64,000 bases of DNA from Aldrovandia affinis (taxonomy: Eukaryota > Chordata > Actinopteri > Notacanthiformes > Halosauridae). Position numbers and translations under genes: made by a program. Under the pieces are notes generated by a model. It ran no database searches. It saw nothing but the letters and a program-made list of their open reading frames with translations, and was not told where the DNA came from. Every line of letters begins with the position of its first letter. Positions within the stretch are counted from its first letter, which is position 1. Of this stretch, positions 51,131 to 55,077 are shown piece by piece. Location of the stretch: positions 3,053,501 through 3,117,500 of the forward strand of contig JAINUG010000088.1 of NCBI GenBank assembly GCA_029706075.1, read 5' to 3'.

Positions 51131-51608
51131 TGTCACACGCCATGGACAATTCCTGAATGGGGACAGAGCAGTCCAGACACGAAGTGGAGTTTGCCGGTCT
51201 ACGGACCGTATTTTTCTTTATTTTATTAATAATTTTTTTATTTTATCTGTTCCCACACTGGGCAGAGAACGAGCACCGGGAGCGTACAATAACACAAACA
51301 CAAACAAACACTTTACCCTAGTTGCCGCAAAGCTTTTGGGTAACTAATTGAAAATAACAAAACCAAATTAAACAATATCGAACTGGCACTTTTCAGTTTG
51401 TTCGATATTTTAACTTTCGCTTTTCTTCTCGCTCCTCGGTCTCAAACGCCTCTCCCTCCTGGTTATAGCCACCTACTGAAGGGAGCAGAGCAGTCTTAAA
51501 GCACACAGATGTAATTATTATACACAGGACCGGTGTGTGCGCTTACTGCTCTGCCAGTAGGCGTGGCCACTAATCGTCCTGATTAGCTGCCGAGACCGAC
51601 GCCTTCCA
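51131..51608 (-). repeat. 3' LTR of the Gypsy element
   Basis: Starts TGTCACACGCC on the plus strand and ends CGCCTTCCA. It matches the other LTR over most of its length (CAGAGCAGTCCAGACACG, GGGCAGAGAACGAGCACCGG, TTTGTTCGATATTTTAACTT). About 50 bp near its right end (51515-51560) is absent from the other LTR. Confidence 0.85.
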
Positions 51609-52227
51609 CCCCCCTCCATCGCCAGAATGTGGCCAGGGCCCATTCGGTTCGACAGATCCCCACCTCCCTGGAGAGGAAGTCTGCGCACTCATTCACTGAC
51701 CCTGGCCAATGTATCACTCGGAAGCAAAAGGGCTGTAATGCAAGATACCACTGAGTGATCCTGGAGTTGGTGTCTTTCATCTTGTGTAGCCACTGGAGGG
51801 GTGCATGGTCGGTATAGAGGGTAAAGGCCTTGCCCAAGAGGTAGTACCAGAGGGTGAGAGAGGCCCACTTGATCGCCAAATACTATTTTTCTATGGTGCT
51901 GTAGCGGGCCTCTCTCGGAGAAAGCTTCCGACTGATGTAACATACCGGTCGCTCCTCCCCCCCACGCTCCTGGGACAAGACTGCACCCACCCCCCTATCC
52001 GAGGCGTCGGTCTGTAAAATAAAAGGCAGAGAGAAATCAGGGCTGATTAGCAGAGGGCCGCCACATAGAGTCGCTTTTATACTCACGAACGTCGCCTGGC
52101 ACTGCTCTGTCCACTGGACCGGATCTGAGGCTCCCTTTCGGGTGAGATCAGTTAGGGGACTGGCTAGTGCCGAAAAGCCAGGAATAAACCGGCGATAATA
52201 ATTTGACAGTCCCAAAAAGGATCTCAC
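51583..52227 (-). pseudogene. Gypsy RNase H region, with stop
   Basis: The first frame (51883-52227) starts after the RT with RSFLGLSNYYRRFIPGFS, the conserved RT thumb/RNase H linker. It holds FILQTDASDRGVGAVLSQ, with the first catalytic Asp at about residue 74, and YSTIEK before an in-frame TAG. The same frame continues (51583-51879) with LYTDHAPLQWLH, carrying another catalytic Asp, and VNECADFLSR. In the family this domain degrades the RNA strand of the RNA-DNA hybrid. The stop at 51880-51882 looks like a single substitution. Confidence 0.88.
51609..51624 (-). other. Polypurine tract candidate
   Basis: The plus strand reads CCCCCCTCC just inside the left LTR, giving GGAGGGGGG on the element's strand. 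This is the expected site of plus-strand DNA priming next to a 3' LTR. Confidence 0.55.
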
Positions 52228-52235
52228 CTATTTTT

Positions 52236-52868
52236 TTACTTGGGCTGTGGGCAGGCAGAAATGGCTGCAGTTTTATCAATCAATGGTCTGACCTGCCCCC
52301 TGCCCAAGAGGAACCCCAGATACCGTACCTCTCTCCTCCCAATAGCGCACTTGCCTGGGTTAGCAGTGAGCCCCGCTCCCCTCAGCGTCTGTAGGACGGC
52401 CTGCAAATGCTGCATATGCCACTCCCAATCATTACTATAGATGACAATGTCATCCAAGTATGCCGTGGCATATGCAGCATGCGGTCGAAGTAGCCTATTC
52501 ATCAGTCGCTGAAAGGTGGCCGGATCCCCATGCAGACCAAAAGGCAAGGTCAGGAATTGGTGTAAACCGAACCGAGTAGAGAATGCCGACTTTTCCCTGG
52601 ACACTGGAGACAAGGGAATCTGCCAGTAGCCCTTGGTTAAATCCAGTGTCAAATAAAAGCGAGCAGTGCCCAACCGATCCAGCAGTTCATCAACCCGGAG
52701 CATTGGATAGGCATCGAACTTCGATACTGCGTTAACTTTCCTGTTGTCCACACAGAATCGAACAGACCCATCAGGCTTAGGTACAAGCACAATGGGGCTG
52801 CACCAGTCACTATTAGATTCCTCTATTACCCTCATGTCTAGCATTTTTTCCAATTCTTCCTGAACCAC
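52236..52868 (-). pseudogene. Gypsy reverse transcriptase domain
   Basis: A 210-codon frame with clear RT motifs: SPIVLVPKPDGSVRFCVD (about residues 24-41), LTLDLTKGYWQI (catalytic Asp about 76), LPFGLHGDPATFQRLM, and YLDDIVIYS (137-145), the YxDD active site with both Asp present. Frameshifts separate it from the integrase on one side and the RNase H on the other; in the family all three are one polyprotein. The GDPATF segment departs from the usual NAPATF. Without repair it cannot make a functional enzyme. Confidence 0.93.
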
Positions 52869-52948
52869 TTTTTTTTGTGTTCAGGCAGCGATATGGTTGG
52901 CTCCTAATCACGGTGCCTGGCAGGGTCTGAATGTGGTGTTCAATCAAG

Positions 52949-53806
52949 TCAGTTAGAGTAGAGTAAATTACTCACCTCTGCCCGCTGGCCCGGTGTAAGA
53001 TGGCTACCAATGGGGACCGGAAGTCTTGTACTTTCAATTGGAATTTCTGGTCCCAGCTCATCTCTGGGATTTTCTGGCATGGCGAGCGAAACAGGGTCTA
53101 CCACCTCCCACCGTTTTAATAAATTTAGGTGGTATATCTGACGTGAGCCACCTCTATCCGAGCGAATGACTTCATAATCAACATCCCCCACTCGCCATGT
53201 AACCTCAAAGGGCCCTTGCCACTTTGCGAGCAGCTTAAATGCTGACGTTGGGAGTAACACTAGGACTTGATCTCCCGGTTGAAAATTTCGCAATTGTGCC
53301 CCCCTGTTATATTGCCGTCTCTGTCGTTCCTGGGCCTGGAGCAAATGTTCTCGTGAAATTTGTCCGAGTGAGTGCAGCTTTGCTCGTAGGTCCATGACGT
53401 ATTGAATTTCATTTTTGCTGGGGCTCGGATTTTCCTCCCAAGTTTCTCTTAATAAATCCAGAATACCCCTGGGACGTCGCCCATATAATAATTCAAACGG
53501 GGAAAACCCGGTGGAGGCTTGGGGAACCTCTCTGATGGCAAACATCAGCGGATCAATTAATTTGTCCCAATTCTTTAAATCAGTTTGAAAGAACTTACGC
53601 ATCATGGATTTCAATGTCCGATTGAACCGCTCTACCAGCCCGTCAGTTTGTGGGTGGTATACGCTAGTTCGAATTGACTTGATGTCCAATAATGCGTCCA
53701 GTTCCTTCAGTGTTCGTGACATAAATGAAGTGCCTTGATCAGTGAGAATCTCTTTCGGGATTCCCCCCCAGGAGAAAAAGTGGAACAACTCCTCCGCAAT
53801 AGTCAT
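52949..53806 (-). pseudogene. Gypsy integrase catalytic core and C-terminal domain
   Basis: A 285-codon frame. ILTDQGTSFMS holds the second catalytic Asp (residue 23) and YHPQTDGLVERFNRTLKS holds the Glu (residue 59), giving 35 residues between them, the D,D-35-E signature. KWQGPFEVTW (GPF at 198-200) and IYHLNLLKRW (224-233) form the GPY/F module of the C-terminal domain. It ends at a frameshift just before the RT, with no separate RT start. Position upstream of RT is the unusual feature. An in-frame TAG separates it from the piece with the first Asp. Confidence 0.92.
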
Positions 53807-53839
53807 TGCAGATATATTGCGGAGGGGTACAGCCTCAGA

Positions 53840-54574
53840 CTATCGCGTTGCATAGTCTACGATAACTAATACAAAGCGGTACCCTTTGGCACTCCGATCA
53901 AATGGCCCGACAAGGTCCATTCCAATTAGTTCGAACGGAACCTCTATTAAAGGCAAGGGGTACAATGGAGCTTTTGGAATTGCCGCTGGGCAACGGACAT
54001 TACCTCGAATGCCCGGCCAATAGAATCGAGCCATTACCTGGGATAGTGTCTTATCCTGTCCTAAATGACCCGGGTTGGGGCTGGGTATCGGCCTGGGAAT
54101 GGACTGGGGAAGACGGGAAATAGGGACGTTGGGGCGGGAGCTGTACCCTAGGCTTTTCAGCCCTCCAGCTCTCTGGGGAAGACGGGGAATAGGGACAGTG
54201 GGGCGGGAGCTGTACCCTGGACTTTTCAGCCCTCCAGCTCTCTGGGAAAGATGGGGAATAGGGACGTTGGGGCAAGAGCTGTGCCCTGGGCTTTTCAGCC
54301 TTCCAGCTCTCTGGGGAAGACGGGGAATAGGGACGTTGGGGCAGGAGCTGTGCCATGGGCTTTTCAGCCCTCCAGCTCTCTGGGAACATCTCCCCGTATC
54401 CCCACGGACCACCAGGCGATTCTCCGCCAGCTGGACGCCTGCAGTCAGCCCCTGCAGCTCCTTGTTCTCAATCCGCAGCTTGGAGATCTCTTCATCCTTG
54501 GCTTCAATGGCTTTGTGCAACTTCTCATTCTCCTGCAGAACATTATACAGAGCTTTCCGCCATTCTTCCGCCAC
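53840..54574 (-). pseudogene. Gag-like coil, 69-bp repeats and integrase N-terminus
   Basis: This 244-codon frame has a non-ATG start. An N-terminal heptad-like segment, EKLHKAIEAKDEEISKLR followed by IENKELQG, predicts a coiled coil. Four 23-residue repeats (QRAGGLKSPGxSSxPNVPIP) follow. The last third is integrase: GHLGQDKTLSQVMARFYWPG from the zinc-binding region, then PLIEVPFELIGMDLVGPFD with the first catalytic Asp at 220. The Cys pair of the HHCC zinc site is largely deleted and the join from repeats to integrase is abrupt, so protease and the rest of gag were lost. It ends at an in-frame TAG. Confidence 0.85.
54105..54385. repeat. 69-bp tandem repeat inside the Gypsy coding region
   Basis: Four units of 69 bp (23 codons, so frame-neutral), each with GGAATAGGGAC(G/A)TTGGGGC-like sequence and CTTTTCAGCCCTCCAGCTCT. 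The units differ at a few bases each. The translated unit is Pro/Ser/Arg-rich. Confidence 0.92.
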
Positions 54575-54645
54575 CTCCTTCCATTATGTGGACTTCATTC
54601 GGCTACTCCACAAACAGGACACCAAGACAATCTGCTGCTCTGTTC

Positions 54646-54663
54646 TCCTGGGTTTCGGCACCA
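54646..54663 (-). other. Primer-binding-site candidate
   Basis: Three bases inside the 5' LTR, the element's strand reads TGGTGCCGAAACCCAGGA. Its complement ends in CCA as a tRNA 3' end does, which is the expected minus-strand primer site. I cannot name the tRNA with confidence. Confidence 0.65.
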
Positions 54664-54666
54664 CTT

Positions 54667-55077
54667 TGTCACACGCCACGCGACAATCCCTGAACGGGGA
54701 CAGAGCAGTCCAGACACGGAGTGGAGTTTGCCGGTCTACGGACCTGATTTTTCTTTATTTTGTTAACGGAGAGTTCTCTGTTCCCACACTGGGCAGAGAA
54801 CGAGCACCGGAAGCATACAATAACACAAACACAAACGACTAGTTGTTGCGAAGCTTTCGGGTAACTAACTGAAAATAACAAAACCAAATTAAACAATATT
54901 GAACCGGCACTTTTCAGTTTGTTCGATATTTTAACTTTCGCTTTTCTTTCGCTTTTCTTCTCGCTCCTCGGTCTCAAACACCTCTCCCTCCTGGTTCCAG
55001 CCACCTACTGAAGGGAGCAGAGCAGTCTTAGAGCACACAGATGTACAGGATTATTGGCCGCTAATCATCCTGATTAC
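54667..55077 (-). repeat. 5' LTR of the Gypsy element, outer end rearranged
   Basis: Starts TGTCACACGCCACGCGAC and tracks the 51131-51608 LTR with scattered substitutions, many at CpG sites. It lacks the internal segment of about 50 bp and stops matching after CTAATCATCCTGATTA at about 55075. About 25 bp of the outer end is missing. A second piece of LTR-end-like sequence appears at 55155-55185. Confidence 0.82.

Follow-up and report, generated by a model that had tools for sequence, protein, structure and literature searches.

Structure of the element in the window

A stretch of 64,000 nucleotides from the fish Aldrovandia affinis (contig JAINUG010000088.1, positions 3,053,501 to 3,117,500; termed here the window) was found to carry on its minus strand a long terminal repeat (LTR) element, extending from 51131 to about 55196, in which part of the host gene for geminin (gmnn) stands in the place of the capsid part of Gag. 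Geminin normally prevents a second round of DNA copying. Pfam searches of separate minus-strand open reading frames (ORFs) placed integrase, reverse transcriptase (RT), RNase H and an LTR in this 5′ to 3′ order, which bears out the arrangement reported in an earlier note on this DNA. The integrase was detected as (i) a zinc-binding domain (PF17921, E-value 7.1e-6) in ORF 54574-53840 (-); and (ii) a C-terminal domain (PF22938, E-value 9.4e-8), together with rve matches below the cut-off, in 53806-52949 (-). The former ORF runs in one frame from a geminin start through a tandem repeat of 23 codons to the integrase zinc-binding domain. The features of the element, in its own 5′ to 3′ direction, are as follows.

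54667..55196, minus strand: 5′ LTR; its inner part, 54667-55045, can be aligned with the 3′ LTR, whereas 55046-55196 shows rearrangement and has an uncertain outer edge
54650..54663, minus strand: primer-binding-site-like sequence TGGTGCCGAAACCC, 3 nt past the LTR, in a leader common to capsid-bearing sister copies
54600..54631, minus strand: 32 nt at the boundary of parental leader and geminin-derived sequence, absent from the parental loci in the junction alignment
54446..54599, minus strand: geminin-derived sequence, made up of what remains of the start-codon exon (MKST), then an in-frame stop and the coiled coil (Pfam Geminin, E-value 1.6e-18; PDB geminin, E-value 2.3e-11; 91.9% nucleotide identity)
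54385..54445, minus strand: remainder of parental Gag, beginning with the final capsid residues (GVQLAEN...), in frame with geminin (junction alignment with L044 and L046; tblastn)
54104..54384, minus strand: 4.1 tandem copies of a 69-bp (23-codon) unit, of which a single one is read in sisters L044-L046
54062..54103, minus strand: end of a Pro-rich linker and a deletion junction (geminin-to-integrase spacing compared with L024)
52949..54061, minus strand: integrase, broken, with the zinc-binding domain partly missing and more than one frame (ORFs, Pfam)
52236..52868, minus strand: RT (RVT_1, E-value 2e-30)
51583..52227, minus strand: RNase H in two ORFs, 52227-51883 and 51879-51583 (PF17919, E-value 4.2e-25; PF17917, E-value 6.2e-12)
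51609..51617, minus strand: polypurine tract GGAGGGGGG, adjoining the 3′ LTR
51131..51608, minus strand: 3′ LTR, TG...CA, with its start set by LTR alignment with L042

The window copy is dead. The reading frames of its integrase, RT and RNase H differ, which marks it as broken, an in-frame stop occupies the position of host Y98 in the geminin segment, and the zinc knuckle, protease and N-terminal integrase have been deleted (about 0.8 kb relative to L024, a related copy; the geminin-to-integrase spacing is 504 nt in the window versus 1332 nt in L024). The aligned parts of its LTR pair are 86% identical with gaps, and the last RNase H ORF overlaps the 3′ LTR by 26 nt. With an outer edge of the 5′ LTR near 55196, the element may be slightly longer than first reported. 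No target-site duplication was recognized by eye.

Identification of the geminin segment and its family

The start of ORF 54574-53840 was identified as the geminin coiled coil both by profile and by relatives of solved structure. The Pfam match (PF07412) scored 67.6 bits against a cut-off of 22.2, and a phmmer search of the PDB at E-values up to 1 returned six sequences, five of them geminin chains and the sixth multicilin. The geminin profile was then run over the 1.22-Gb genome to which the window belongs. Of the 53 rows returned, three came from the host gene (exons on C2134) and two copies accounted for two rows each, leaving 48 geminin blocks outside the host gene; a 91-residue query gave 51 rows at largely the same places. 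Twenty-six of the 48 blocks are in the sequence examined here, namely the window plus 22 fetched loci (L011-L029 and L031-L033, with two blocks each in L016, L023 and L027). These three loci hold tandem pairs of geminin-form elements that are 97-99% identical over 2.6-5 kb and appear to share their middle LTR. The stretches fetched for two other loci (L013 and L029) contain geminin blocks and gave no pol match. The profile had no match in 14 control genomes, a weak control as the kinds of genomes are unstated. In viral and prokaryote collections no siblings were found; two IMG/VR loci (L001 and L002, at 44% and 41% identity) were taken as chance coiled coils. Among the listed publications containing the word geminin, none was found by title to report such a capture, which is weak evidence of novelty as subscription journals are mostly uncovered.

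The donor is a spliced gmnn transcript

The host gmnn gene (locus L030) has two introns at the match, of 452 and 467 nt and bounded by GT..AG. When the host exons were joined, they aligned without gaps over 218 nt to the four long copies, spanning both exon junctions at 90.4-93.6% identity (93.6% in L012, 93.1% in L011 and L013, and 90.4% in L014); the window segment was 91.9% identical over 148 nt. This ungapped match across exon junctions means that the piece derives from mRNA, and the donor is the spliced gmnn mRNA of this lineage. The captured stretch comprises parts of three exons, without introns, corresponding to human residues of about 73-144. The host start-codon exon (L030 1187-1253) was found to be the source of the element start MKSTD(I/M)AS; in L011-L014 its remnant of 18-25 nt (90-94% identity) directly adjoins the longer match, with E-values of 2e-3 to 4e-5 in three of these copies and 0.034 in L011. 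Skipped between the two are the degradation-box exon (RRTLQVLQ, L030 ~2956) and the beginning of the exon after it. The degradation-box exon, when compared with 23 sequences, gave a single match of 16 nt in L017, about 5.7 kb from the geminin block of that locus.

As read from the alignments, short stretches are shared at the 3′ junction (CTGGC) and at the internal jump (AAAAC), and such short matches fit template switching. A 32-nt stretch before the start codon is present in 10 of 12 aligned geminin-form copies, and no match of its length was found in L030. Two copies, L017 and L018, are without this stretch and without the captured start codon.

Capsid-bearing sisters and the replacement of the capsid part of Gag

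The relatives of the element were collected by an RT search of the same genome, in which 151 matches were reported and the best 150 of 7097 candidates were scored. Among the matches listed, 87 rows were at least 73% identical to the query and the others 60-67%. Three geminin-free copies with RT 90-92% identical were read upstream (L044-L046), and their leader, linker, knuckle and protease region were found to be those of the geminin form, with Gag in the place of geminin. A SCAN-type capsid was detected by Pfam in L044 (E-value 3.1e-19) and L046 (E-value 5.1e-7), and tblastn with the Gag of a more distant family (L043) matched the same two loci (E-values 1e-17 and 1e-14, respectively). In L045 this query gave no match at 0.01, and the L044 capsid matched it at 82%. 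The sequence upstream of a fourth geminin-free copy (L047) holds the protease region and integrase, with a capsid match just upstream. The distant family itself has a SCAN match (E-value 3.2e-8), a zinc knuckle just below the cut-off and a protease (E-value 3.9e-5) in an open frame of 1479 amino acids. Together with the RT rows at 60-67% identity, L043 represents a distant capsid-bearing family of Gmr1 type, some members of which have single open frames of 1443-1485 amino acids.

The boundary of the exchange was mapped with the capsid ORF of L044. Its SCAN match covers residues 47-133, and the window and the 22 geminin loci were matched only from about residue 119 (from 110 in L018), the SCAN-type capsid being absent from the geminin form. 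Thus, gmnn sequence has replaced, in frame, the N-terminal and capsid portions of Gag, leaving only some 15 residues at the end of the SCAN match. This genome contains both the parent form with capsid and its derivative with geminin, and the idea that every Gmr1-type copy in it carries geminin was rejected, as the sisters carry capsid instead. When the 87 RT copies, 48 geminin blocks and 150 listed capsid positions (from a genome search with the L044 capsid giving 151 matches, the best 150 of 2120 candidates scored) were cross-tabulated for same-strand neighbors 0.6-5 kb upstream, geminin accompanied 16 of the RT copies among the matches listed and capsid 31; none had both and 40 had neither. 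No geminin block was found within 6 kb of any of the 150 capsid matches listed.

The two forms also differ next to the exchanged segment. The canonical histidine of the zinc knuckle is kept in all three capsid-form copies and lost in all 18 geminin-form copies (R in 17 and C in one), of which L012, L014 and L028 have a histidine elsewhere in the motif; the last cysteine of the knuckle is W in 13 of the 18. The 23-codon unit occurs once in L044-L046 and L014; every other geminin-form copy in which it was read has two to five. In a tree of the nucleocapsid-protease region the three capsid-form rows make one group (support 1.00, branch 0.047) in the Newick file; the script's own group flag was False after re-rooting. 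The four capsid-form rows in the RT tree group at 0.947.

Domain order and relationship to the Gmr1 clade

Integrase upstream of RT is a recognized mark of the Gmr1 clade of Ty3/Gypsy elements (PMC8220671, PMC2582038). The earlier note had proposed a Gmr1 relative, to be set against same-order siblings in the genome, and had named two separate insertions or an assembly join as the competing explanation. Integrase and RT are both present in 16 of the 22 geminin loci, all ordered geminin, integrase, RT; of the other six, two (L013 and L029) show no pol match, L015 lacks integrase, and L017, L021 and L031 lack RT. Integrase also lies 5′ of RT in all eight loci taken from the RT search (one of which, L034, is the window itself). 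An order common to 16 of 16 siblings excludes a misjoin, separate insertions were rejected on the same ground, and siblings of ordinary order were not seen. In L024, one frame of 527 amino acids is open from geminin through the start of integrase.

Two marks of the clade, the integrase-before-RT order of the readable siblings and the SCAN-type capsid of the sisters and of the more distant family L043, support assignment of the element as a probable Gmr1 relative, as the earlier note had suggested; what that assignment missed was a derivative family with geminin. The SCAN mark is borne by the capsid-bearing parent form, of which the geminin form is a derivative. The reported domain order is real and already known, and the geminin capture is the finding.

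Structural subfamilies and the loss of residues 82-89

The starts of 24 geminin blocks were read and fell into (i) LONG, four copies (L011-L014) spanning human residues of about 73-144; (ii) D8, four copies (L015, L017, L018 and L031) without the 24 nt that encode TKEAYELL, residues 82-89 by an ungapped count back from A103; and (iii) D30, 15 copies including the window, which lost 90 nt between two TCCACA repeats and start with MKST-YWKEV or a variant. The remaining copy, L016, has a frame-breaking loss over the same stretch, so that residues 82-89 are missing in 20 of the 24. In one D8 locus (L031, on C557) the coil is cut short and joined to a mid-integrase fragment. The three D8 copies used in a coil tree group at 0.99, apart from D30, with weak deep nodes. 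From these sequences, two independent losses of residues 82-89 are likely. Distances between the LTRs of 13 copies (Kimura two-parameter, some LTRs partial) range from 0.006 (L026) and 0.009 (L023), both of the short form, up to 0.136 in the window (407 aligned sites).

Human geminin fragments 76-145 and 82-145 inhibit licensing, and fragments 90-145 and 96-145 do not, yet these bind CDT1 at 93 and 38 nM; residues 82-90 are required for the inhibition, and 96-145 still binds (PMC12695944). Judged by these fragment data, the D8 and D30 deletions would strip the licensing-blocking part and keep the part that binds CDT1 and dimerizes; the reason for the loss we infer below.

Selection on RT and on the coil

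RT variants shared by at least two of 18 geminin-form rows and private to them numbered 13 nonsynonymous (N) and 20 synonymous (S), which departs from a neutral N fraction of 0.68-0.70 (P-value 2.6e-4 to 6.7e-4). Two tandem pairs are among these rows, as is L038, which was assigned to the geminin form through a weak match; two rows of unknown type were excluded, and with 13 rows the count was 9 N and 20 S. Variants also present in capsid-form rows were 2 N and 3 S, and the fixed differences between the two forms were 0 N and 5 S. These counts indicate purifying selection on RT in the derivative, from which it follows that Pol stayed functional in this line; the derivative would make a working Pol of its own.

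For the coil, divergence from the host gene was lower at nonsynonymous (pN 0.026-0.095) than at synonymous sites (pS 0.19-0.36); a claim of selection on this basis was not upheld by controls. The CDT1-facing YWKEVAE is unchanged in 19 of 22 copies.

Interpretation and alternatives

Overall, we favor, at a probability of roughly 0.65 with the proposed mechanism included, the reading that host geminin was captured by a Gmr1-type family of Ty3/Gypsy LTR retrotransposons, of which the window contains a dead copy. This family took up a piece of spliced gmnn mRNA, replaced its capsid with it, lost the CCHC histidine, kept its RT under selection and expanded. At its origin RT would have jumped from one template to the other where packaged gmnn mRNA and the RNA of the element share short matches. 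Particles may be supplied in trans by the Gag of the capsid-bearing sisters, by analogy with helper-dependent transforming retroviruses, and the geminin coil would serve as a dimerizing tag on Pol that may bind CDT1. More speculatively, residues 82-89 could have been shed at least twice as harmful to the cell, the dimerizing and CDT1-binding part having stayed.

Several observations weigh against this reading. Among the matches listed, 40 of the 87 RT copies show neither geminin nor capsid, which is no proof of absence; only one of them, L042, was read at its 5′ end, where an internal deletion joins the LTR to the protease-integrase region. The protease match of L024 falls under the Pfam cut-offs. 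In the RT tree a long geminin-form copy, L014, joins the capsid-form rows at 0.761, such that the two forms are not cleanly separated by RT and may have exchanged sequence. The stretch lost in D8 lies within that lost in D30, and the deep nodes of the coil tree are weak, which leaves the two independent losses likely but unproven. The 32 nt at the 5′ junction match neither the aligned parental loci nor, over their length, L030. For the coil, purifying selection within the family was undetectable (shared variants 18 N and 10 S over 48 codons; N fraction 0.64 versus 0.68-0.71 under neutrality, P-value 0.28-0.41), its low pN/pS is accounted for by constraint on the host gene when half of the divergence is assigned to the host branch, and a stop falls inside the coil in two of 22 copies (the window and L016).

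These last points, the undetectable selection and the stops, also favor the closest competitor, in which the geminin piece is a functionless passenger, tolerated as an in-frame leader of Pol, and Pol and the LTRs work with helper Gag. We rate this somewhat short of an even chance; it shares the capture and the helper with the favored reading. The 24-, 90- and 69-nt changes are all multiples of three, so that the frame may be what is kept, but the deletion in L016 breaks the frame. Also against the passenger reading, D8 and D30 both end short of the CDT1-binding coil, and YWKEVAE is conserved as noted above.

The remaining alternatives are much less probable. It is unlikely that the parallel geminin coil multimerizes the polyprotein and replaces the capsid in assembly with no helper: a closed shell is more than a dimeric coil would be expected to form by itself, and the genome also contains capsid-bearing sisters whose leader and RT are nearly identical. 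In its favor, the capsid and the canonical CCHC histidine are gone while RT is under selection, and the geminin coil is a stable dimer (PMC3814758). Also improbable is host manipulation, in which a geminin fragment free of the degradation box holds CDT1 and blocks licensing to the benefit of the element. The LONG form, at about residues 73-144 and without the degradation-box exon, comes close to the inhibitory fragment 76-145; however, LONG accounts for only four of the 24 block starts, and a start at profile positions 70-77 was found in only four of the 48 blocks. Similarly doubtful, at odds of about one in ten, is a capsid-free LTR retrotransposon, the coil of which would bring a Pol dimer to CDT1 on chromatin and tie copying or integration to licensing; if true, the loss of residues 82-89 would be a detoxification that kept the CDT1 handle. 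Coiled coils do yield spurious matches and are frequent in Gag proteins, but an ordinary Gmr1 element with a chance geminin match was rejected given the ungapped 90-94% nucleotide identity to host gmnn exons across both junctions.

Surroundings of the element

Inverted repeats at 49738-49774 and 55526-55562 flank the retrotransposon, and transposase pieces lie at 50157-50823, with a Tc3-type transposase match below the cut-off (E-value 7.7e-5). The surrounding 49738-55562 is probably a remnant of a Tc1-like transposon, with the retrotransposon as a nested insertion. A short dispersed repeat is present in the window at 55460-55524, 29921-29983, 30840-31068 and 32142-32381, and also in intron 2 of gmnn (L030).

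Comparison with known systems and significance

Host-gene capture by LTR elements is already known. Maize Bs1 is an LTR element with a transduced host gene and is alike in bearing a spliced host gene fragment; the present case differs in its expanded family, structural subfamilies, coexisting capsid form and capsid replacement. Acutely transforming retroviruses with Gag-oncogene fusions depend on a helper and, as here, have exchanged replication genes for host mRNA sequence that is fused to their own coding sequence, a helper being presumed for the geminin form; unlike them, this is a multicopy genomic LTR retrotransposon with RT under selection.

Among Gmr1 elements, typified by Gmr1 of Gadus morhua (PMC8220671, PMC2582038), the likeness lies in the LTRs, integrase upstream of RT, and RT-RNase H, and for the capsid form also in the SCAN-type capsid, CCHC knuckle and protease-like stretch before integrase; the window family differs by geminin in place of N-terminal and capsid Gag and by its broken zinc knuckle. 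Tetraodontiform Gmr families are fish elements too; they combine gag and pol in a single ORF and are listed at 6.1-6.5 kb, with LTRs of 337-518 bp and a gag-pol of 1506-1634 amino acids; the part of their description at hand includes no geminin, and here geminin to 3′ LTR measures about 3.9 kb in L024 (PMC11117352). A Gmr1-like element gave rise, through its Gag, to the host SCAN domain (PMC3424704); that same Gag region is the one replaced by geminin here, and the flow is reversed, with a host domain replacing the capsid of an element. Compared with geminin itself (PMC12695944, PMC3814758), the element version keeps the coil with the CDT1-facing motif in the 19 copies mentioned, yet is without the degradation box and the C-terminal domain and, in 20 of 24 cases, without residues 82-89.

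The capsid form, the derivative, the donor gene, the junctions and the later subfamilies are all found in one genome, so that the individual steps of the event can be followed. In place of the capsid part of Gag stands a cell-cycle regulator, in a derivative that kept a selected RT and multiplied. The family offers a test case for an LTR element that may live on borrowed shells, with a licensing factor as its possible handle on chromatin.

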